DNA of 64,000 bases from Kosakonia sp. BYX6 (GTDB lineage: Bacteria; Pseudomonadota; Gammaproteobacteria; Enterobacterales; Enterobacteriaceae). Made by a program: the position numbers and the translations under genes. Below are positions 2,480 to 58,831 of the stretch, piece by piece. Below the pieces are notes generated by a model. That model was not told the origin of the DNA. It worked only from the letters and a program-made list of their open reading frames with translations, and made no database searches. The number at the start of each line of letters is the position of its first letter. Within the stretch, counting starts at the first letter, position 1. The stretch covers positions 1,894,406 to 1,958,405 of the forward strand of contig NZ_CP151800.1 in assembly GCF_038449125.1 (NCBI RefSeq), written 5' to 3'.

Positions 2480-3391
2480 TTACTTCTCCGCCTCGCACGG
2501 CGTAACCACCGGGCGCACCGGGAGCAGGTATTTACCCAGCGTGACCAGCACCACCGCCAGAATAATAATACCCAGCGCCAGCCACTCAACTGGGGAGAGG
2601 TGTTCGCCACCAAAGCCGGTGCCGAGCAGCACGGCGACCACCGGGTTGACGTAGGCGTAGCTGGTGGCCACGGCAGGCGACACGTTGCGGATTAAATACA
2701 TATAGGCATTGATGGCGATGATCGAGCCGAACAGCGCCAGGTAGGCCACGGCGAAGAAGCCGGATGCCGGCGGTACGGCGGTGAGGCGCTCGCCACTGAT
2801 GGCGGATGCCGCAAGCAGAACAATGCCGGCGGTTAACATTTCAATAGCGCCTGCCATCATGCCAGTCGGTAGCTCGACGCGCGAACCGTACACCGAACCA
2901 AACGCCCAGCTTATCGATCCCAGCAGAATCAACCCGGCACCCCACGGGTTACCGCTTAAGTTACCGCCGCTGTTGAGCAAAATAATGCCCGCCAGACCAA
3001 TGGCGATGCCTAACCATTCCAGTTTGCGCGTGGCGATACCGAAAAAGCGGCTGAAGCAAAGGGTAAACAGCGGAACCGTCGCGACAACCACGGCGGCAAT
3101 ACCGGACGGGACATTCTGATGTTCGGCCACGGTGACAAAACCGTTACCCACCGCCAGCAGCAGCACGCCAATCAGCGCGGCGTTGAGCAGCGGGCGCAGC
3201 GGCGGCAGCTTGTGGCCGGTCAACAGCAACACCGCGGTTAACAGCACCCCGGCGCAGAAAAAGCGCGTACCGGCCAGCATAAACGGCGGCCAGCTTTCAA
3301 CGCCAATACGGATAACGAAGTACGTGGAACCCCAAATGATATAGAGCGCAAAAAGCGCTCCAATAAGAGGTAAAACTTGCCTGAAACGCAT
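2480..3391 (-). CDS. yedA: YedA, EamA/DMT-family inner-membrane permease
   Basis: The 303-residue protein is close in length and sequence to E. coli YedA. It is hydrophobic throughout, with about ten predicted membrane segments arranged as two EamA repeats, and has the typical WGSTYFVIRIG motif near the N-terminus. It belongs to the drug/metabolite transporter superfamily. Homologues are proposed amino acid or metabolite exporters, but the substrate of YedA is not established. It is followed by yedI on the opposite strand, as in E. coli. The vsr-dcm genes that flank yedA in E. coli are replaced here by the toxin-like gene. Confidence 0.93.
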   Translation of the reverse strand: MRFRQVLPLIGALFALYIIWGSTYFVIRIGVESWPPFMLAGTRFFCAGVLLTAVLLLTGHKLPPLRPLLNAALIGVLLLAVGNGFVTVAEHQNVPSGIAAVVVATVPLFTLCFSRFFGIATRKLEWLGIAIGLAGIILLNSGGNLSGNPWGAGLILLGSISWAFGSVYGSRVELPTGMMAGAIEMLTAGIVLLAASAISGERLTAVPPASGFFAVAYLALFGSIIAINAYMYLIRNVSPAVATSYAYVNPVVAVLLGTGFGGEHLSPVEWLALGIIILAVVLVTLGKYLLPVRPVVTPCEAEK

Positions 3392-3601
3392 AACCCACCA
3401 CGGAGGAATATAAGAGGCTTATAGTAAACGCCAAAACTATCCGGCTGGCGAGTGGTTAATTGTGCTGAAACTGTTAAATTTTTGTTGATGTTTTTTGATG
3501 CCAATCCAGGGTGTTTTTCGCCTGCTATCTTTTACTTCATACTGTTCACCGTTCGTTACTCGCTGGGCGATTTTGCGCAGCATAATCAAAAGGAAGACAT
3601 T

Positions 3602-4513
3602 TTGGCAGGAAGTAGTTTATTAACCTTACTCGATGACATTGCCACCTTGCTGGATGACATTTCAGTGATGGGCAAACTGGCGGCGAAAAAGACCGCTGGC
3701 GTACTGGGGGATGATCTCTCGCTGAATGCCCAGCAAGTCACCGGCGTGCGCGCCAACCGTGAGTTGCCGGTGGTGTGGGGCGTCGCGCGCGGATCGTTAT
3801 TAAACAAAGTGATCCTCGTTCCCCTGGCGCTGCTGATCAGCGCTTTTATTCCGTGGGCGATTACCCCCTTGTTGATGCTCGGCGGCGCGTTCTTGTGTTT
3901 TGAAGGCGTTGAAAAAGTGCTGCACACCATTGAGTCGCGCAAACACAAAGAGAACCCGGAAGCACGCCAGCAGCGGTTAGAAGCATTGGCGGCGCAAAAC
4001 CCGCAGCAGTTTGAGAAAGATAAAATCAAAGGCGCGATACGCACCGACTTCATCTTGTCGGCGGAAATTGTCGCCATCACCCTTGGCATTGTCGCGGACG
4101 CGCCTTTGCTCAACCAGGTGTTGATTCTCTCGGGCATTGCGCTGCTGGTGACGGTCGGCGTTTACGGCCTGGTGGGCATTATCGTCAAGCTTGATGATAT
4201 GGGCTATTGGCTGGTGGAGAAAAACGGCGCGCTGGCGCAAGGGCTGGGTAAAGGCCTGCTGGTCGTTGCGCCGTGGTTGATGAAGGTCTTGTCGGTGGTC
4301 GGTACGCTGGCGATGTTTCTGGTCGGCGGCGGAATTGTGGTGCACGGTATTGCGCCACTGCATCACGCCATTGAACATTTCGCCAGCGCACAAAATGCGT
4401 TGTTACAGGCGTTGACGCCGATGGTGGCAAATCTGCTGCTCGGCTTTGTTATTGGTGCAATTGTTGTGGTTATCGTGAAAATGGTGACCCGTTTGCGCGG
4501 CAGCGAAGCATAA
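3602..4513 (+). CDS. yedI: YedI, DUF808 family inner-membrane protein
   Basis: The product is 303 residues and matches E. coli YedI (305) end to end. The open frame extends upstream to 3452, but the family N-terminus ([18 protein letters not shown]) fixes the start at the TTG at 3602, which has an AAAGGAAG ribosome site a few bases upstream. It has several predicted membrane helices and a conserved [14 protein letters not shown] region. It belongs to the DUF808 family of inner-membrane proteins, whose function is unknown. Confidence 0.9.
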
Positions 4514-49648: not shown

Positions 49649-50773
49649 TTACGCTTTCACCTTCGCCGCGGGAACCGCATACAGCACCATTTCATAGGCC
49701 AGCCGTGGATGGTGGGCGCGCAGGTAGAAACGGTAATCGCCGTGTAACTGCTGAATGAATTGCGGAATGGTCAGCAAATCGTCGCGCTTGTGGTACAGGC
49801 TGATGGCGAGCGTCGGCTGCCAGCGCGTAATGGTGTTTTGCGCGCCCTGCAATGCGGCGAGTTCCGCGCCTTCAATATCCATCTTGATAAAGCTGACGCG
49901 GTTGCCGCCGGTGACATCATCAATTTTCAACAGATCGATTTTATCGCCAACGGGCGCGTCGCTCAGGGACGACGAGAACGAGTTGGACGCATTGAAATAG
50001 AGCGTGGTGGCTTCGTTCCACACGCCAGCCTGAAAATGAGCGCACTGCGGCAGGTCGGCGGTGTTGTGCTGCAACTGGGCAAAGGTGGTGCTGTCTGGCT
50101 CGAAGGCATAGATTTTTTCGGCCTCACCCGCGCCGTCGCGCTTGAGCGCAGTGACAAACGCCTTGATGCTGTCGCCGTCGAACGCGCCGCAATCGACAAA
50201 CACTTCGTTATCACCCAGCGCAATAATTTCTTGCGGAAAGTAATGCTGTGGATGGTAAAGCGCGCCATATTCGCCTTCACACGCGCTAATGCGCTGGTTC
50301 AGATACGCGAGCAGGGTGGCTTTCGACCTCTCGTCGCCAAGCTGGTCATACAGCGCGGTCAGCGCCTGTTGATGTTCTTCGCACCAGCCAAAAGTGAAAT
50401 ACGCTTTGGTATTCACGCCGACAAAGGCGCAATCGTAGAACAGCATTTCGCTGGCGCTTTGGCGCAAACTCGTGAGCAGCGCCTCATCGGCAAACTGCAT
50501 GGCGATGATGTAGTTAAACGTTTTGCCTGAGGCCGCCAGCGCCTCAAACGATTCCAGCGCGAAACCGTTAAATTCACTGCCGGGGCGCAGGTAGCTCCCG
50601 CCGATGGCGACCTTATCGACGCGCATGTGTTCGCGCTGCATAAATTCCCAGGTCACTTGCGCGGCGTAACCGGCACCGCACAACACAATGGGGTCGCCAT
50701 TGGTTTGCATACGCGCCACGGTATCAACGAAATGGTTGCGCGTGGCAGAAATCAAATTGACGATTGAGGTCAT
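49649..50773 (-). CDS. FkbM-family methyltransferase
   Basis: This 374-residue protein has an N-terminal nucleotide-binding-like segment (VLCGAGYAAQVTWEFM) and a C-terminal FkbM domain (VFVDCGAFDGDSIKAFV, FIKMDIEGAELAALQGA). FkbM enzymes are mostly O-methyltransferases, and many flagellin glycan islands contain one. It is the last gene of the long minus-strand operon, 42 bases after the LuxC-like gene. Confidence 0.82.
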   Translation of the reverse strand: MTSIVNLISATRNHFVDTVARMQTNGDPIVLCGAGYAAQVTWEFMQREHMRVDKVAIGGSYLRPGSEFNGFALESFEALAASGKTFNYIIAMQFADEALLTSLRQSASEMLFYDCAFVGVNTKAYFTFGWCEEHQQALTALYDQLGDERSKATLLAYLNQRISACEGEYGALYHPQHYFPQEIIALGDNEVFVDCGAFDGDSIKAFVTALKRDGAGEAEKIYAFEPDSTTFAQLQHNTADLPQCAHFQAGVWNEATTLYFNASNSFSSSLSDAPVGDKIDLLKIDDVTGGNRVSFIKMDIEGAELAALQGAQNTITRWQPTLAISLYHKRDDLLTIPQFIQQLHGDYRFYLRAHHPRLAYEMVLYAVPAAKVKA

Positions 50774-50815: not shown

Positions 50816-52015
50816 TCACAGCGTGTTTGCAACGTTTCGCGTTAACAGGGCGACCAAATCGTAGCCATCCCATTGCAGGGTAAAATCGAGCGTTTGCCCA
50901 AACGCCACGACGCGATCAATGCCTTTCGGGCGGCGTGCGGCAAGCCAGGCGTCGATCGTCGTTTTCTCAATACCGAACGTCGCGAGCGTTTGGCAGCGCG
51001 CATCGCAAAGCGGCGTCATGTCATTGAGCGAGTCGGCAACATACTCCATAAAGAAGCCGCAATTACCGCGTAGCGCCATCACGCCCGGCGTTAACGCTGC
51101 CAGTTCGACACGCACCACTAAATTGTCATCGTCAGAGACTTTCTTCACGCCGGGATACTGCGCGGCCAACTGGTACAAACGGGTCAGCTTATTGACCGCC
51201 GCCACCGGCTCAAGCGGATAATGGCGAGCGGCGAAGGCCTGAAAGTGCTGCCAGAATTGCTCGCGTGCCGCCTGTGTTTCAACGCCCAGCCAGACCAGCA
51301 ACGACGGCGACGAGCAGGCGTTTTGGTCGTTTAACAGCGTGTCGTTAAAAAAGGCCTGCGCGAGTTTTCCTTTATCCGCATGCGCCAAATAGCGGTCGGC
51401 ATCGATAGCGGCAAGGGAGTAACGATCGGCGAAGGCGATATCCAGCGCGCGCGGTTTCAGCGGCGAGCGGCGAATCTGCGCAATTGTCTCATCGCCGCCC
51501 CAAATAATGCGTGTATCACACAAGGCAGACAGCGCGTCATTGATCCCTTGCTGGCGATCGTAGCGCAGCAGGCAAATATAAGGCGCCAGCGCCGGGTGTT
51601 CGTGCAGCGCGGCGCATAACAGGCGAACGATAATCGGCACTTGCAGATGATCGCGCCCCGGCAGCCGCACAATATTGGCGTTACCGGTGAGCAAACCGCT
51701 GAACAGCGAATAGGCAAAGTTGGCGGCGACGTTGCCAGGCGCAATATGCAGCGCCACGCCGCGACCGTAGCGATGGGCTAAATCGCCATAGGCGGCGCGC
51801 ATCTGGTTCAGCGAGGCGGCACGGCACCAGAAACCGAGGCTGATCACATCCGGCCAGGCTTTGGCTTCGTCGTCGCGCAATGTCAGGCGCGAAAAGGTCT
51901 GTAACAACGCCAGCATTTCTGCGGCGAACGGCGGGAACGGCGCCAGATCAGGCATCGCCTGCAACTGCGCTTCATCACCGATGACAAACGTCAGACCGTC
52001 AAAATGTTGCTGCAT
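50816..52015 (-). CDS. LuxC-like acyl-CoA / acyl-protein reductase
   Basis: The product is 399 residues and matches the LuxC acyl-CoA reductase family. The catalytic Cys234 is in LLNDQNACSSPS, and the nucleotide-binding IAPGNVAANFAYSL stretch is present. LuxC takes an acyl group from LuxE and reduces it with NADPH to an aldehyde. It overlaps the LuxE-like gene by 17 bases, suggesting a joint complex. There are no luciferase genes, so the aldehyde must serve another purpose. Confidence 0.85.
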   Translation of the reverse strand: MQQHFDGLTFVIGDEAQLQAMPDLAPFPPFAAEMLALLQTFSRLTLRDDEAKAWPDVISLGFWCRAASLNQMRAAYGDLAHRYGRGVALHIAPGNVAANFAYSLFSGLLTGNANIVRLPGRDHLQVPIIVRLLCAALHEHPALAPYICLLRYDRQQGINDALSALCDTRIIWGGDETIAQIRRSPLKPRALDIAFADRYSLAAIDADRYLAHADKGKLAQAFFNDTLLNDQNACSSPSLLVWLGVETQAAREQFWQHFQAFAARHYPLEPVAAVNKLTRLYQLAAQYPGVKKVSDDDNLVVRVELAALTPGVMALRGNCGFFMEYVADSLNDMTPLCDARCQTLATFGIEKTTIDAWLAARRPKGIDRVVAFGQTLDFTLQWDGYDLVALLTRNVANTL

Positions 52016-53084
52016 ACGTGTCGCTGCACCCTCGTAATTCTGCTTTTTTTAGTCTGCCGATAACGTGGAAATATTTGCCTTTGCGCCCGCACGGGCAGTC
52101 ATCTTCGCCGAGCAACACGCCTTCATCTTCGGTCAACAGCGAATGGCCCGGATAGGATTCGGGGAGCAGGGAGAGCACCTGAATAATCCCCGGTTTGCCA
52201 ACGGGCGCGCAGGCGAAATCCGCCGGATCGCGAATGATAATGTCCGAGAAAATCGAGGTGTGCAGATGCCCGTGCTCGCACTGCATCGAGATACAGCCGG
52301 TTTGTTCCACCATGCCGTAATAATCATGCACCGCAGGCAAGTTGCAGACATCGTGCAGGCAACGGGCGAACGCCTGCGGGGAAACGGCTTCATTTTGCAG
52401 CTTTTTCCAGCCGCCGCCGTGAATCAACAACGCGTTGTCGAGCGCCAGTTTTTTACCGCTGGCGGCCAGCGCTTTATAAAAGTGCTGCCACACCATAAAG
52501 GTGAAGCCGAACAGCAAAATGCGTTTTCCCTGGTGCTTTTCGAGGAAGGCTTCAATGACCGGCAGATTCAACGTCATCTGCTCATCCAGCGCCCATGCGC
52601 GATCGGCGCCGAACAGCGAAAAACCTAAAATGCCTGCGCCGCGCGCTGAAAATTGCTGCCGGTCTTTCAGCACATCCGGCGAGTCGATCACTAACATTGG
52701 CAAACGGCCCGCGCCGGTAAATTGATTAACGATTTTCACCAGCGTTTTTTGCTGATACGCGGCGGTGGCTTTATCGAGAAAAATCCGCGACACCTGCTGC
52801 CCGGTGGTGCCGGAAGAGGTCATGGTTTTGACGATCTCATCATCCGCGATGCTTTTTAGCGTCAGCGTTTTAAACAGCGAAACGGGCAGAAAGGGCAGAT
52901 CTTCCACCGCCTGAATGGATTGCGGTGTGATGTTTTGCGCATCCAGCATATGCCGGTAGTCTGCGCAATGGGCGTAGTGGTGCGCGGTCAGCGCCTTCAG
53001 GCGCGCCAACTGAAGCGCACGCTTATCCTCGCGCGCCAGCGAATAGGGGGCAATGCCCAGCATTTCATCAAGCGACAGGGACAT
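51999..53084 (-). CDS. LuxE-like acyl-protein synthetase
   Basis: This 361-residue protein belongs to the LuxE family. The motif MTSSGTTGQQVSRIFLDK is the adenylate-forming loop, and a Cys-rich end (EDDCPCGRKGKYFHVIGRLKK, split by the adenylation hinge) is typical. LuxE activates a carboxylic acid as acyl-AMP, keeps it as a thioester and passes it to LuxC. It overlaps both neighbours by 17 bases. Confidence 0.83.
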   Translation of the reverse strand: MSLSLDEMLGIAPYSLAREDKRALQLARLKALTAHHYAHCADYRHMLDAQNITPQSIQAVEDLPFLPVSLFKTLTLKSIADDEIVKTMTSSGTTGQQVSRIFLDKATAAYQQKTLVKIVNQFTGAGRLPMLVIDSPDVLKDRQQFSARGAGILGFSLFGADRAWALDEQMTLNLPVIEAFLEKHQGKRILLFGFTFMVWQHFYKALAASGKKLALDNALLIHGGGWKKLQNEAVSPQAFARCLHDVCNLPAVHDYYGMVEQTGCISMQCEHGHLHTSIFSDIIIRDPADFACAPVGKPGIIQVLSLLPESYPGHSLLTEDEGVLLGEDDCPCGRKGKYFHVIGRLKKAELRGCSDTYAATF

Positions 53085-54903
53085 ACTCTTTCAGCCTGTG
53101 ATAAAGGGTTTTACCCGCCGGGTTCTTGGGGATCTCACTCAGTGCGATCACGCGAAAGGCCGACGCATGCAATTTGCTGATCCCGGCGGCGTACTGCTTC
53201 ACGTCGCCGGCGAGGGATTCGTCGGTAATAAAAATACACAGCAGATCGTCGCGGCCATCGCAGGCGACGGCGGTATCCGCAAACGCGGTTTTCAGCAGCG
53301 ATTCCATCTCATCCAGCCCGACACGGTTGCCGAAGATTTTCAAAAAGCGTTTTTTGCGCCCGACGATACGGTAAAAACCGTCACTGTCGACGGTGGCGAT
53401 ATCGCCGGTGTGTAGCGTGCCGGCGAAGGTGTCGCCGAGCGCCAGATCTTCACCGCACTCGGCGTAACCGAGCGCCACATTTGCCCCGCGATAGATCAAT
53501 TCACCTTGCGTATCCGGCGTGGTGATCGGGTGGTTATCATCGCCGAGTAGCAAAAATTCCCCGCCGGGGATCGGCTTGCCGATAAAACCATAGCGACTCG
53601 CGGCGTGCTCCGGCGCAAGCCAGGCCATGCGCGAGGTGGCTTCGGCGGCACCGTACATCACGATAAAGCGCTTGCCGTTTTGCATCGCGTACTCGGTGTA
53701 CTCCTGCTGCAACGCGGCGGCGAGTTTACCGCCTGCCTGCGTTAGCGTGCGCAAATCCGGCAGATCCATACGCATGAAGCGCAATTTGCGCAGCATCTCC
53801 CAGGTGTAAGGAACGCCCGCGAACGAACTTGCACGCTCGGTGCGCACAAACTCCCACAGTTCGCGCTGCATCACGCTGTACCCGGTCAGTAACAGGCTGG
53901 CGCCAGCGTGCAAATGGCTGTTGATGATCGACAAACCATAGACATAGTTGATTGGCAGGCTCACCAGCCCGCGTTCACGCGCATCAATGTCGAGATAGTG
54001 CGCAATGCTCTCCGCATTGCTTTGCAGATTGCGTTTGCTGAGGCGCACCAATTTCGGGCTACCGGTTGAGCCAGAGGTGGTCATCAGCAAGGCCAGCTCA
54101 TCGTGCAGTGGCCACGGCGTTAACCCGGTGGCGTGTAATTGATAACCGCCGTCACCCGACAAAACGCCTGATGGCGCTTCGCTTATCAGGCCTACGGTAC
54201 CCGGGCCGGAAGTTTGTAGGTCGGATAAGGCGCAGCCGCCATCCGACAAAACGCCTGATGGCGCTTCGCTTATCAGGCCTACGGTACCCGGGCCGGAAGT
54301 TTGTAGGTCGGATAAGGCGCAGCCGCCATCCGACAAAACGCCTGATGGCGCTTCGCTTATCAGGTCTACGGTACCCGGGCTGGAAGTTTGTAGGTCGGAT
54401 AAGGCGCAGCCGCCATCCGACAAAACGCCTGATGGCGCTTCGCTTATCAGGCCTACGGTACCCGGGCCGGAAGTTTGTAGGCCGGATAAGGCGCAGCCGC
54501 CATCCGACAAAACGCCTGATGGCGCTTCGCTTATCAGGCCTACGGTACCCGAGTCGGAAGTTTGTAGGCCGGATAAGGCGCAGCCGCCATCCGGCGAAAC
54601 GGTTGGTGTCGGCTGCCAGATCAGCGAAGGCTTGTAGGTATCGATCAACTGCTGCGCCAGCGTGTTGTCGAGCGCGTTGTCCAACAGCAATGCCACCGCA
54701 TCGCTTTGCAGGCAGGCGAGATAGCCGACAACGGCTTCGACCTGATTCTGGCAAAAGACAAACACTAATGAACGGGCTGGGATGTGGCTTGCCAGCGCGT
54801 CAACGCGGGCGGTCAGTTCGCCATAGCTCAGGCTTGCGCCACGATCATCTTTCAGCGCAAGTTGCGCGGTGTCATGCTGTTGCGTCTGCCAGAAAGTGTT
54901 CAT
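53068..54903 (-). CDS. ANL-superfamily acyl/aminoacyl ligase interrupted in frame by a translated REP repeat array
   Basis: The protein is 611 residues; without the repeat it would be about 466, which fits the family. The adenylation motif LLMTTSGSTGSPKLVRL, the GAAEATSRM motif, the hinge GFYRIVGRKKRFLKIFGNR and the late Lys in NPAGKTLYHRL are all intact. Residues about 102-247 are five copies of a 29-residue unit (SDGGCALSGLQTSGPGTVGL plus ISEAPSGVL). They are encoded by a REP/BIME array and sit between the first subdomain and the P-loop. It probably charges an acid onto the ACP encoded upstream. Whether the repeat is tolerated or harmful is unknown. Confidence 0.85.
   Translation of the reverse strand: MNTFWQTQQHDTAQLALKDDRGASLSYGELTARVDALASHIPARSLVFVFCQNQVEAVVGYLACLQSDAVALLLDNALDNTLAQQLIDTYKPSLIWQPTPTVSPDGGCALSGLQTSDSGTVGLISEAPSGVLSDGGCALSGLQTSGPGTVGLISEAPSGVLSDGGCALSDLQTSSPGTVDLISEAPSGVLSDGGCALSDLQTSGPGTVGLISEAPSGVLSDGGCALSDLQTSGPGTVGLISEAPSGVLSGDGGYQLHATGLTPWPLHDELALLMTTSGSTGSPKLVRLSKRNLQSNAESIAHYLDIDARERGLVSLPINYVYGLSIINSHLHAGASLLLTGYSVMQRELWEFVRTERASSFAGVPYTWEMLRKLRFMRMDLPDLRTLTQAGGKLAAALQQEYTEYAMQNGKRFIVMYGAAEATSRMAWLAPEHAASRYGFIGKPIPGGEFLLLGDDNHPITTPDTQGELIYRGANVALGYAECGEDLALGDTFAGTLHTGDIATVDSDGFYRIVGRKKRFLKIFGNRVGLDEMESLLKTAFADTAVACDGRDDLLCIFITDESLAGDVKQYAAGISKLHASAFRVIALSEIPKNPAGKTLYHRLKEYVPVA
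54165..54599. repeat. Five tandem 87-bp units made of REP/BIME palindromes, inside a coding sequence
   Basis: Unit starts are 54165, 54252, 54339, 54426 and 54513, exactly 87 bases apart (3 x 29). Each unit holds two palindromes, GCCTGATGGCGCTTCGCTTA... and GTAGGTCGGATAAGGCGCAG..., typical of enterobacterial REP elements. Units 1 and 2 are identical, unit 3 differs at two bases, unit 4 at one, and unit 5 at about five. No stop codon occurs in the minus-strand ligase frame or in two other frames. Confidence 0.95.
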
Positions 54904-55865
54904 TGCAGGGCGTCCATAATGCGGGCGGTCGTTTGTTCTGCCGTCAGGCCGCTCTGTTCTAGCATCCAGCCGTAATCCCCCGCGTGCGGGTAACCTTGCG
55001 GAATACCGATGGTTAACTGTTTCGGGCGCTGCGCCTGGCCGCCAACGTATTCGGCAACGGCGCTGCCCAAACCGCCAATCATGCTGTGCTCTTCCATCGT
55101 CACCAGCAGCTTTTTCCCTAACTGCGCGGCGATAACGGCTTCATCCAACGGTTTGAGGGTGTGCATATCAATCACCGCCGCGTCGATGCCGCGATCGGCC
55201 AGGTGACCCGCGGTGGTGAGCGCAACATGCACCATACTGCCGGTGGCAATAATCGCCACATCGTTGCCGTCGCGAAGCGTAATCGCTTTGCCGGGGATCA
55301 GCTCAAAATCTTCTTTATAGACGATCGGCGCGCGCATGCCGCCGGTCAGGCGTAAATAGACCGGGCCATCGTAAGCCAGTGCCGCCTGGGTCATTTTCAC
55401 CGTTGCCGTGCAGTCCGCCGGGGAAAAAATGGCGATATTGGACACCGAACGCAGCATCGCCAGCTCTTCGATACCGTGGTGCGTGGCGCCAAACATGCCG
55501 GTTGCCAGCCCGGAAGCCAGCCCGACCAGCTTGACGTTTTCCTGCATGTAACCGAGGTTCAGGCGCACTTGTTCCGCCGCGCGCAGCGTCAAAAAGTTGG
55601 GAAACGAGGTGGCAAACGGCACAAAACCGCTGGCTGCCAGACCGGCGGCCACGCCGACCAGGTTTTGTTCGGCGATGCCGGTATTAATAAAACGATCCGG
55701 GTAGGTGGTGCTAAAGCGATCCAATCCTGAGGATTTGCACAGATCGCCGGAGAGAGCGACGATGCGGGCATCGTCATGCGCCAATTCAAGCAATGTCATC
55801 CCGAAGGTGCCGCGGGAACCGAGCATCGACCAGGAACGGATAGTGGCGGGCTTGAACTCAATCAT
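54900..55865 (-). CDS. Transketolase, C-terminal subunit
   Basis: This 321-residue protein carries the pyrimidine-binding and C-terminal domains of transketolase, with the catalytic Glu motif NTGIAEQNLVGVAAGLA. Together with the upstream gene it makes a two-chain ThDP enzyme, as in archaea and some secondary-metabolite clusters. It overlaps the ligase gene by four bases and the N-terminal subunit gene by eight. A role in transferring a two-carbon ketol unit is expected. Confidence 0.9.
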   Translation of the reverse strand: MIEFKPATIRSWSMLGSRGTFGMTLLELAHDDARIVALSGDLCKSSGLDRFSTTYPDRFINTGIAEQNLVGVAAGLAASGFVPFATSFPNFLTLRAAEQVRLNLGYMQENVKLVGLASGLATGMFGATHHGIEELAMLRSVSNIAIFSPADCTATVKMTQAALAYDGPVYLRLTGGMRAPIVYKEDFELIPGKAITLRDGNDVAIIATGSMVHVALTTAGHLADRGIDAAVIDMHTLKPLDEAVIAAQLGKKLLVTMEEHSMIGGLGSAVAEYVGGQAQRPKQLTIGIPQGYPHAGDYGWMLEQSGLTAEQTTARIMDALQ

Positions 55866-56676
55866 GCTGGCCTCCGTTCAGTTCAGCCAGCGCGTCGGTA
55901 AGCTGTTGGGCGGAGACCCGGTTACGGTGGAATTCTTTATTATTTTCCATAAACGAGACCCCTTTGCCTTTCACCGTATTGGCGATGATGACCTTCGGTT
56001 TGCCGTGATGCGGGGCGCTAAACGCCGCTTGTAAAGCCTCGATGTCGTGACCATCGCAAACGAGGGTTTCCCACTGGCAGGCGCGCCACAGGGCGTCGAG
56101 ATCCATTTGCATCACGTCCTGGGTAAAGCCGTCGGATTGCAGGCCGTTACGATCGACAATCAGCGTCAGGTTATCCACCTTGTGATGGGCGGCCATAAAT
56201 GCGCATTCCCAAATGGCGCCTTCGTTGCACTCGCCGTCGCCGACCAGCACATAGGTTTGCCAGCGTTCGCCTTTCAGACGACGGCCAAGCGCCAGCCCGG
56301 TAGCGAAAGAAAGCCCTTGCGCCAGGCTGCCGCCGGAAAAATCGATACCGTATTCAGGATGTTTGGTCGGGTGAACCTGCAACACCGAGCCGTTGATTTC
56401 AAATTCATTCAACTGCGCTTCGCTGATAATGCCGAACTCGCACAGCGTGGCGTACAGACCGAGCGCTGCGTGGCCTTTGCTCAGAATGAACACGTCACGA
56501 TCGTGACAGGTGATGTTCTGCGCATCGTACTGCATGACGACGCCATAAAGCGTACTCAGAATGTCGGTCATCGACAGTGCAGGGGAGACGTGCACGCCAT
56601 CGCTGGGCGCGTGGTGCGCCACGCTGATAATACGGTTACGAATGCGTCGTGCCGCATCCTGAATTTTTTGTGTCAT
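55858..56676 (-). CDS. Transketolase, N-terminal (ThDP-binding) subunit
   Basis: This 272-residue protein has SKGHAALGLYATL and the ThDP/metal motif GDGECNEGAIWE. It is the ThDP-binding half of a split transketolase. It overlaps the SDR gene by four bases and the C-terminal subunit gene by eight, so both subunits are made in equal amounts from one transcript. Confidence 0.9.
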   Translation of the reverse strand: MTQKIQDAARRIRNRIISVAHHAPSDGVHVSPALSMTDILSTLYGVVMQYDAQNITCHDRDVFILSKGHAALGLYATLCEFGIISEAQLNEFEINGSVLQVHPTKHPEYGIDFSGGSLAQGLSFATGLALGRRLKGERWQTYVLVGDGECNEGAIWECAFMAAHHKVDNLTLIVDRNGLQSDGFTQDVMQMDLDALWRACQWETLVCDGHDIEALQAAFSAPHHGKPKVIIANTVKGKGVSFMENNKEFHRNRVSAQQLTDALAELNGGQHD

Positions 56677-57416
56677 TTGAGACCACCATCCACGCGAATT
56701 GTCTGGCCAGTGATGTAGCTTGAGAGATCGCTGGCGAGGAATAACGCCACCTGCGCGATTTCCGCCGGTTCGCCCGCGCGTCGCAGGTCGGCGTTTTTCT
56801 TCGCCTCTTCGACCACCTGCGCGGGCATGGTAAGCAGCATTTCCGTTTCGGTTACCCCAGGCGCGATACAGTTGGCGCGAATGCCTTTCTCGCCCAGTTC
56901 CGCCGCGATGGATTGCGTCATGGCAATCAGCGCCGCTTTCGACGCGCCATAGGCGGATTTACCTGGGTTGCCATCTTCACCCGCTGTCGAGGCGATATTA
57001 ATGATGCTGCCACGCTGCTGGCGGGCCATCAGCTTGGAGATGTATTGGGTGAAGAAATAGACAGAGAAGAAGTTCACTTCAAACTGGCTGCGCAACTGCG
57101 CTTCGCTGGTCATCTGGAACAGGCTGTTCATGGCGATACCGGCGTTGTTGATGACCGCGTCGATCGGGCGTTTGTCAGCCATGACGCGCTTAACGGCCTC
57201 TTTCATCGCCGCCGTATCGGTGATGTCAAAACCGAGCGGCCAGATCTGCACCTGGTGCCGTTCGGCTATTTGCGCCATCTGGCTGACAAAGGCATCATCG
57301 GCTTGCCGGGCATGGGCGTAAATGTTCGCGCCGTTTGCCGCGAACACATTAACCATTGCCAGCCCCATGCCACGGCGACAGCCGGTGATTATGACGTTTT
57401 TACCTTGCATCAACAT
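56673..57416 (-). CDS. SDR-family oxidoreductase (FabG-like)
   Basis: This 247-residue protein has the cofactor motif TGCRRGMG near residue 11, the catalytic Ser in NIASTAGEDG, and the YxxxK motif in SAYGASKAAL. The C-terminal ITGQTIRVDGG is typical of FabG-like reductases. It may reduce a keto group on an ACP-bound intermediate or on the transketolase product. A second ATG two codons later is an alternative start. Confidence 0.87.
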   Translation of the reverse strand: MLMQGKNVIITGCRRGMGLAMVNVFAANGANIYAHARQADDAFVSQMAQIAERHQVQIWPLGFDITDTAAMKEAVKRVMADKRPIDAVINNAGIAMNSLFQMTSEAQLRSQFEVNFFSVYFFTQYISKLMARQQRGSIINIASTAGEDGNPGKSAYGASKAALIAMTQSIAAELGEKGIRANCIAPGVTETEMLLTMPAQVVEEAKKNADLRRAGEPAEIAQVALFLASDLSSYITGQTIRVDGGLK

Positions 57417-57428
57417 AAGGTCATCACA

Positions 57429-57671
57429 CTAGCTTTGCAGCGCAACATCGTATTTTTTCAGGATCTCTTTGCCCTTTTCCCATGACGCGAATTCGATGAT
57501 GTCATCGGTATCCATCATGATGTCGAAGGCGTCTTCCAGCGAGGCGATCAGCGTCATATGACCAACAGAGTCCCAGGACGGCGTGTCCTGATATTTATAG
57601 CCCGCGAGGGTCTCTTCCGGGACTTCGAAGGTTTCGACAAAAATACGGTTGTATGTTTCCAGGTTGGACAT
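57429..57671 (-). CDS. Acyl carrier protein
   Basis: This 80-residue acidic protein has the phosphopantetheine site DSVGHMTLI, with the Ser about residue 35. The ATG at 57671 has a GGAG site six bases upstream; a GTG one codon earlier is less likely. It differs from the housekeeping AcpP and is dedicated to this cluster. It probably carries the acyl group loaded by the ANL ligase. Confidence 0.88.
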   Translation of the reverse strand: MSNLETYNRIFVETFEVPEETLAGYKYQDTPSWDSVGHMTLIASLEDAFDIMMDTDDIIEFASWEKGKEILKKYDVALQS

Positions 57672-57708
57672 CACGTTCTCCAGATAGCAGCAAACTGAGT
57701 TTCAGGCA

Positions 57709-58353
57709 TTACCTGAACACTTTTTTATTCTCATTCGGGCGCATCACGCGCGCCGGGTTGCCCAGCGCAATCACCGACGGGCCAATATCGTTAAACACGA
57801 TGGCGCCCATACTAATAATGGTGTCTTCACCAATGGTGGTGGTTTCGCGGATGGCGGCGTTCAAACCGATATACACACGGGGGCCAATCTGGCAGGTTCC
57901 GCCGAGGTTGGCGTAAGCAGAAATCACGCTGTCGTCGCCGATCACACAATCATGGCCGACATTGCAATTGGGTTGCAGATAGACGTTGTTGCCGATGGTG
58001 CAATCGCATGAGACATAGGCGCGGTCACACACAATGCAGCCTTCGCCGAAGGTCACATCATCGCTAATGCGCGCCAGAGGGTGAATTAATGTCGCCAGGC
58101 GAAAACCGGCGTCGCGCGCTTTTTGCGCCATCATCTGGCGAACAGCGGGTTCACCGACGCCAACTGCGACTTCATATTCATCGGCGGAAAGGTCGTTGAG
58201 CGTCACGACCGGGTGGCCCTTTAACTCACGGCCAGGATGGATATCATCGATAAAACAGAAGCCGCTCCAGCGTGACTCGATTGCGTTGATCTGCTTGACC
58301 AGCTCATAGACTTCTTTGCCAAGCCCGCCTGCGCCATAGATTGCCAGTTTCAT
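57709..58353 (-). CDS. NeuD/PglD-family sugar acyltransferase
   Basis: This 214-residue protein has an N-terminal Rossmann-like part (KLAIYGAGGLGKEV) and a C-terminal left-handed beta-helix with hexapeptide repeats. The likely catalytic His is in NVGHDCVIGD. The family transfers acetyl or other acyl groups to the amino group of UDP- or dTDP-amino sugars. It may acylate the amino sugar made by the VioA-like enzyme. The second ATG (58353) is preferred for its spacing to GAGG. It is the first gene of the long minus-strand operon. Confidence 0.8.
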   Translation of the reverse strand: MKLAIYGAGGLGKEVYELVKQINAIESRWSGFCFIDDIHPGRELKGHPVVTLNDLSADEYEVAVGVGEPAVRQMMAQKARDAGFRLATLIHPLARISDDVTFGEGCIVCDRAYVSCDCTIGNNVYLQPNCNVGHDCVIGDDSVISAYANLGGTCQIGPRVYIGLNAAIRETTTIGEDTIISMGAIVFNDIGPSVIALGNPARVMRPNENKKVFR

Positions 58354-58831
58354 CATATCCTCGAAATGCGGTGTCGCCGGGCATTACAGCCACGCGCGAA
58401 GAGAGGTTGCGCTCGCGCGTGTGAAAAAGGCGATAGCCCGGATCAGGGCTTTAATGTAAATGAGCAAGGGGGGGATTCAGGCAGAGAATAACCGTCATTT
58501 TGTCTCGCTTATTAACGGATAGAGTAAGTAAAGAAAATCCGCGTTATAGAAAAATTTCAGTTAAGTCAATGAGATTGAGTAGATGTGTTAATAAATGAAG
58601 TGCTGCTGCATTAATATTTCAGCAGCAAAAAACGAAAAAGTGCATGGCGTTACCCCCATGGGCTTAGCGCCTTGATTGTTAGGGATTTCCGGGGTTTTTG
58701 ACGTCTCAAAATCCGCCGATTTTGTTTATTAACGGAAATAAACCCCCATTTCACCCACTATTCATCCGATTAAAACCCCTATAGAAAAGGATAATCACGC
58801 CGATAACTCAATTAACGCAGGGCTGTTTATC
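58354..58831. promoter_or_regulatory. Intergenic control region between the modification operon and fliA
   Basis: About 475 bases without a gene. It should hold the promoter of the minus-strand operon and the fliA promoters. An inverted repeat GCTGCTG / CAGCAGC lies at 58602-58626 with an A-run after it on the plus strand, which does not fit a terminator in either direction. The part from 58700 on contains AT-rich stretches near AACGGAAATAAACCCCCATT that might bind FlhDC, but the match is weak. Confidence 0.5.
58780..58806 (+). promoter_or_regulatory. Candidate sigma-28 promoter of fliA
   Basis: A perfect -10 element GCCGATAA (58799-58806) lies 25 bases before the GTG start. At the expected 15-base distance the -35 is TATA rather than TAAA. 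fliA is known to be partly autoregulated in enterobacteria. Confidence 0.6.

Follow-up and report, generated by a model that had tools for sequence, protein, structure and literature searches.

Published REPs include intragenic ones, the word 'extragenic' in their name referring to the usual position (PMC3733652). According to the accessible parts of that study, Di Nocera et al. (2013) described REPs that lie wholly inside ORFs encoding known proteins in several species. Over half of these are dimers or groups, with sizes of 20 to 30 amino acids, and larger intragenic clusters of 43 to 82 amino acids occur in Thauera and R. conorii. The same text proposes that such insertions may be neutral in flexible linkers or loops, and it cites the palindromic elements of Rickettsia, which are inserted in frame into ORFs whose products are likely functional. 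According to a 2025 survey, overlap between REPs and protein-coding regions is rare (PMC12306157, accessible part). For the enterobacterial elements, the available text of PMC2817692 states that BIME-2 binds gyrase, that an inter-REP sequence binds IHF, and that REPs aid Rho-dependent termination. A different kind of system also bears on the locus studied here, namely the enterobacterial flagellin glycosylation islands. Islands with genes for ACP, LuxE, LuxC, a CaiC-type ligase, FabG and FkbM were present in 11 of the 11 Kosakonia strains studied in the part of that work open to us (PMC4875605).

Here we describe a REP array that is part of the reading frame of a ligase gene in Kosakonia sp. 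BYX6. The genome is a single contig of 4,786,838 bp, and the window, i.e. the whole stretch of DNA that was analysed, comprises 64 kb of it (1894406-1958405). Unless another locus is named, coordinates refer to the window. The reading that we regard as likely is that a BIME inserted into the gene, expanded, and has been tolerated, being translated as a disordered loop within an otherwise intact ligase.

The array and the gene that carries it

Tandem Repeats Finder locates an 87-bp tandem array at 54148..54601, with 5.2 copies, 97% matches, 0% indels and a score of 838; the other tandem repeat in the window is a single row with a period of 12 bp and 2.1 copies. Each 87-bp unit is composed of two GTAG-tagged REP palindromes in opposite orientation. 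Judged by its unit sequences, the make-up is of BIME type according to the definitions given in the available portions of PMC8266576 and PMC2817692, and no strand is assigned to the array or to its units. Unit 1 occupies 54165..54251, unit 2 54252..54338, unit 3 54339..54425, unit 4 54426..54512 and unit 5 54513..54599. The original prediction had described five exact copies, of which the first two were singled out as identical. Units 1 and 2 are indeed identical, but relative to unit 1 there are two differences in unit 3, one in unit 4 and five in unit 5, and pairwise identity among the five ranges from 92.0 to 100%. Divergence of this kind among the units implies that the array has existed for some time. 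All seven sites that vary among the units alter an amino acid (probability about 0.04 with randomly placed transitions), which indicates that the peptide of the repeat is not being conserved. Such a peptide fits a neutral loop, and it fits equally well a gene with a recent loss of function.

The gene that carries the array (53068..54903, minus strand) encodes an AMP-binding (ANL-type) ligase of 611 aa (Pfam PF00501, E 3.8e-46), in agreement with the original assignment. Its ORF is open right through the array, with 103 of the 611 codons before it and 364 after it. The array is wholly inside an ORF of at least 120 aa and away from its termini, which is how Di Nocera et al. (2013) delimit intragenic REPs; it departs from the extragenic position of enterobacterial REPs and BIMEs, lying as it does inside an ORF with an AMP-binding domain. 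The absence of stops in the ligase frame had been put forward at the outset and is correct, but it is weak as evidence. Since four of the six frames are free of stops across the five units, an open ligase frame is unsurprising, and we rejected it as a sign of coding selection. The divisibility of the period by three was likewise given little weight as a sign of selection, REP spacings of 102 and 111 being found in another genome of the genus (G208). Among the other tandem REP loci counted, 0 of 14 have a period divisible by three.

Just after the insert, the protein contains the motif TTSGSTGSPK (residues 274-283; 54055..54084, minus strand), which we take to be the 'P-loop'. Among the ligase homologues, residues 275-278 and 280 of this motif are invariant, and 274, 279 and 281-283 are nearly so. 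Conserved columns were defined on an alignment of 54 of the 80 homologues found. At the 80 columns that are invariant among these 54 sequences the ligase from the window shows no deviation, which bears out the claim that the adenylation motifs on both sides of the array are intact; in a leave-one-out control, 36 of the 54 homologues likewise have none. At columns that are at least 90% uniform it deviates in 10 of 150 cases. With its AMP-binding domain, its conserved columns and its fold, the protein is a predicted adenylating enzyme of the ANL type. On the RNA level, the sense transcript of the array is strongly structured (-232 kcal/mol, z -8.45), and this structure could hinder translation or transcription.

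The REP family of the genome

One 30-base REP occurs at 110 places (57 + 53) in the genome when up to 3 mismatches are allowed, and the reversed pattern occurs at none; together with the inverted GTAG-tagged pair, this copy number confirms the initial reading of two REP palindromes per unit. The whole 87-bp unit has at least 85 matches in its own genome, many of them partial (40 of 160 candidates scored), and by sequence it belongs to the enterobacterial REP family. In E. coli no annotated feature lies under the match at the best 20 of 5353 records. An absence of RAYT genes from the BYX6 genome, as suggested by a search with Pfam PF01797 (E 0.001) that found none, was discarded when a query with E. 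coli RayT detected one. This transposase gene (G000:C1:2797044-2797529, G000 being the BYX6 genome) encodes a protein 70% identical to E. coli RayT. At its locus (L156, G000:C1:2794000-2800500), REPs stand on both sides of the RAYT gene, at about 2860-3650. Both features expected of a REP/BIME system are thus present, i.e. GTAG palindromes in inverted pairs at high genomic copy number and an associated RAYT gene flanked by REPs. In the genus, RayT was found in 4 of 15 genomes (G000, G199, G206 and G208), all of which match the unit at E 1e-12; the same holds for G209, which has no RayT match. The REP family is native to the Kosakonia genome.

Since REPs are abundant in this genome and repeats can be mis-assembled, an assembly or sequencing artefact at the repeat family had to be considered, and we regard it as extremely improbable. 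The genome was assembled as one contig. Among the matches listed, the closest whole-unit copies elsewhere in it are merely 84-85% alike, although short pieces reach 100%. Furthermore, the units differ from each other, and both flanks of the array continue in frame into the ligase.

The BYX6 genome was also surveyed for REP clusters within genes. The input consisted of the REP places listed (100 of the 110 matches) and the 40 scored unit candidates out of 160, and 67 stretches around REP places, together with the window, yielded 82 distinct clusters. ORFs were considered when they had at least 120 aa, held a whole cluster and were complete within the fetched stretch. Besides the ligase array, 22 such ORFs were obtained, at 21 clusters. 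A Pfam scan of all 22 assigned no family to 20 of them, and the other two are of the rhodanese type (L162) and the aspartate-kinase type (L176). In both, the REP precedes the domain and would no longer be part of the gene if translation began at a later start codon. The aspartate-kinase-type ORF (L176, 1466-2983) has its REP at residues about 27-38 and its domain from residue 60, and its true start is probably further downstream. Only one of the 82 clusters examined, the ligase array, is interior to a Pfam-recognisable gene. In further loci, mostly from relatives, 16 ORFs of at least 150 aa with a REP match were found in 8 loci, and Pfam recognised a family in 0 of the 16. The further loci numbered 31 with a REP match after 13 loci of the BYX6 genome had been set aside; as far as they are listed, they comprise this genome's RayT locus L215 as well as one or both of two E. 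coli loci. Three of the 8 loci came from the RayT search, and RayT genes missed by PF01797 may be among the 16 ORFs.

The insertion site and the ligase core

Homologues of the ligase measure 434-483 aa, with a median of 468 (n=80); in cases with more than one possible start codon, the one nearest to the expected place was taken, which narrows the spread of lengths. Subtraction of the array from the window's protein leaves 611 - 145 = 466 residues, matching the family norm of about 466 proposed in the original prediction. The nearest homologue, from K. oryzendophytica (L018), has 460 residues, the window's ligase being 151 residues longer. Three of the 15 genomes of the genus possess the ligase, and among them solely that of BYX6 carries the array. 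At the array site, a short linker joins WQP or WRP to Y(Q/H)L in K. oryzendophytica (L018), in Kosakonia G199 and in Phytobacter (L019). The distance between two fixed points amounts to 33-85 residues in the 80 homologues, and to 47 or 48 in 61 of them, compared with 184 in the window. When the stretches between conserved columns are ranked by how much their length varies, the one that received the insert (residues 98-254) comes second, behind its neighbour 256-270. We interpret the array as an insertion at a length-variable linker, the relatives being array-free. An unrelated linker at this place in all relatives had been named beforehand as an outcome that would speak against a coding REP array. 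Taken literally this is what the relatives have, but their linkers are short, and the array has clearly been added there.

An AlphaFold2 model of the 611-aa protein (55 sequences) has a mean pLDDT of 77.8. Most ten-residue blocks of the core score between 82 and 98, residues 105-144, 148-176 and 178-243 fall below 50, and the modelled repeat contains a few short strands of low confidence. When submitted to Foldseek, the model matches ANL-type enzymes, MenE among them (E ~1e-25, query TM-score 0.47-0.57), at a large rmsd of 8-16 to the solved structures. These strands and the large rmsd count against the reading that we favour. Overall, the insert has the appearance of a flexible loop placed where the protein tolerates one.

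We also analysed the core for signs of decay. Residue changes unique to one branch number 6 of 457 in the window's ligase, and 10 and 14 in two relatives, so that the window branch has the fewest of the three and shows no excess of core changes. Values of dN/dS for the core are 0.063 (window-L018), 0.105 (window-L182) and 0.109 (L018-L182), with dS near saturation in these pairs. These results are evidence against long-standing decay of the ligase core; a recent loss of function, with an insertion too young for decay to show, may nevertheless have occurred. According to this alternative, translation, transcription or folding fails at the array, and what remains is a young pseudogene. Such an inactivation would be consistent with the very stable RNA structure of the array, with the fact that every varying site of the units alters an amino acid, and with the faster change of two neighbouring genes and the loss of one SDR copy. 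We nonetheless consider it unlikely, as the divergence of the units points to an array of some age, the frame has been kept over 151 extra codons, the window branch has the fewest unique residue changes of the three, and none of the 80 invariant columns is altered.

A tolerated insertion accounts for these observations in the following way. A BIME of the RAYT-associated REP family of this genome would have inserted where the ligase has its length-variable linker, in the N-terminal part, and recombination or slippage would then have expanded it to five tandem units. The array could be retained because its period of 87 bp (29 codons), together with the flanking bases, keeps the frame, and because the protein presumably tolerates a long disordered loop at the linker, which would make the insertion nearly neutral. 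Most likely the enzyme is made, as a protein of 611 residues whose core is intact and whose loop spans roughly 145 residues, and we infer that it is expressed and has retained its activity.

Gene neighbourhood, possible roles and known systems

The ligase gene belongs to a row of genes on the minus strand. Its start is overlapped by the next gene upstream, a transketolase-like gene with pyrimidine-binding and C-terminal domains (54900..55865; Pfam PF02779, PF02780). Next downstream is a gene for a LuxE acyl-protein synthetase (51999..53084; PF04443), and a LuxC acyl-CoA reductase gene is located at 50816..52015 (PF05893). In addition to LuxE and LuxC, the surroundings of the ligase comprise a hexapeptide-type gene, an ACP-like gene, an SDR, two transketolase-like genes and an FkbM gene. 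The 81-residue gene that we assume to code for the ACP has no Pfam match. A gene with sigma-70 domains lies beside the row, and the two next genes are presumably fliA and fliZ. Altogether, these genes are similar in kind to the fatty-acid part of the flagellin glycosylation islands of Enterobacteriaceae as far as these are described in the accessible text of PMC4875605. On the basis of gene content, the ligase probably corresponds to the 'CaiC' ligases encoded there.

Several neighbouring genes differ between the window and its relatives. The FkbM methyltransferase gene beside luxC (49649-50773) has a match in L019 (62%) and, elsewhere in the locus, in L023 (39%), and none in the fetched stretches of L018, L181, L182 and L020. 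The window has one SDR at 56673-57674, where the relatives L018, L182, L181, L019, L020 and L023 have two tandem SDR matches between the ACP-like and transketolase-like genes. The SDR gene (56673-57416) shows unique changes at 19 of 246 residues on the window branch vs 5 and 2 in two relatives, and for the hexapeptide gene (57709-58356) the corresponding figures are 28 of 214 vs 4 and 5. Allele replacement or a change of substrate is possible for these fast-changing genes. With these two genes evolving more quickly in the window's lineage, and with one of the SDR copies absent, the operon cannot be called static.

The array is situated just upstream of luxE and luxC in one gene row, and its RNA is strongly structured. 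This position would suit an element under selection that acts on DNA or mRNA, through putative gyrase or IHF binding, Rho-dependent attenuation or mRNA stability, and thereby tunes luxE and luxC, or whose copy number tunes the enzyme. The gyrase, IHF and Rho-termination roles ascribed to BIME-2 and REPs in the accessible part of PMC2817692 are in line with such a function. However, relatives with the same gene row manage without an array, and translating ribosomes would be expected to disturb the hairpins. A search of 392 genomes of the family with the translated repeat gave matches in 4 of them; outside the BYX6 genome the open frames measure 80-131 aa, and one contains 2 TGA codons. Within the scope of this search (one reading frame, at most 16 candidates scored per genome), the translated repeat did not turn up in another large open frame. 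We therefore deem a selected element very unlikely. A more far-reaching proposal is that the BIME has been recruited as a frame-neutral coding module. Because the period equals 29 codons, changes in copy number by recombination or slippage would, on this proposal, resize the disordered loop that adjoins the nucleotide-binding motif in a ligase for flagellin modification and never break the frame, while the DNA would go on serving luxE and luxC through its topology and at the mRNA level. We consider this proposal very unlikely.

Among the matches listed from the open-licence literature, no report of a translated REP array from Kosakonia or from this ligase was found. All the same, the novelty implied by the original prediction has to be lowered, for in-frame intragenic REPs are already on record in several species (PMC3733652, accessible part). 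The intragenic clusters of that study extend to 43 to 82 aa, whereas the Kosakonia array contributes ~145 aa from five BIME units. Its section 15, in the text at hand, refers to the enterobacterium C. koseri only for REPs at the 5' ends of possibly non-coding ORFs, while the Kosakonia array lies in the interior of a conserved fold. The likeness to the coding palindromes of Rickettsia that had been suggested holds insofar as palindromes are found in frame inside an enterobacterial gene. It is an analogy only, for the Rickettsia elements recur in many ORFs per genome, and the Kosakonia REP was encountered in a domain-bearing gene in just 1 of 82 clusters. With the enterobacterial BIME-2/RAYT unit, as presented in the accessible parts of PMC2817692 and PMC8266576, the locus shares tandem inverted REP pairs and a RAYT gene flanked by REPs. 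BIME-2 copies, however, lie mostly between genes, whereas the Kosakonia array is in a coding frame, and gyrase or IHF binding is only putative here. As for the flagellin glycosylation islands, the available text of PMC4875605 mentions no REP insertion in the ligase, and it lists two partial ligase genes with the reason unstated.

The locus represents a clean case, i.e. a five-unit BIME array in a structured enzyme of an enterobacterium, with array-free sites in close relatives. Such a system would allow tests of ribosome read-through of REP hairpins, of the tolerance of a REP-encoded peptide and of the rate of BIME copy-number change, which would be seen as protein length. Compared with the described systems, the Kosakonia array looks like a known kind, the intragenic in-frame REP, in an unusually large form that is enterobacterial and resides inside a conserved enzyme.
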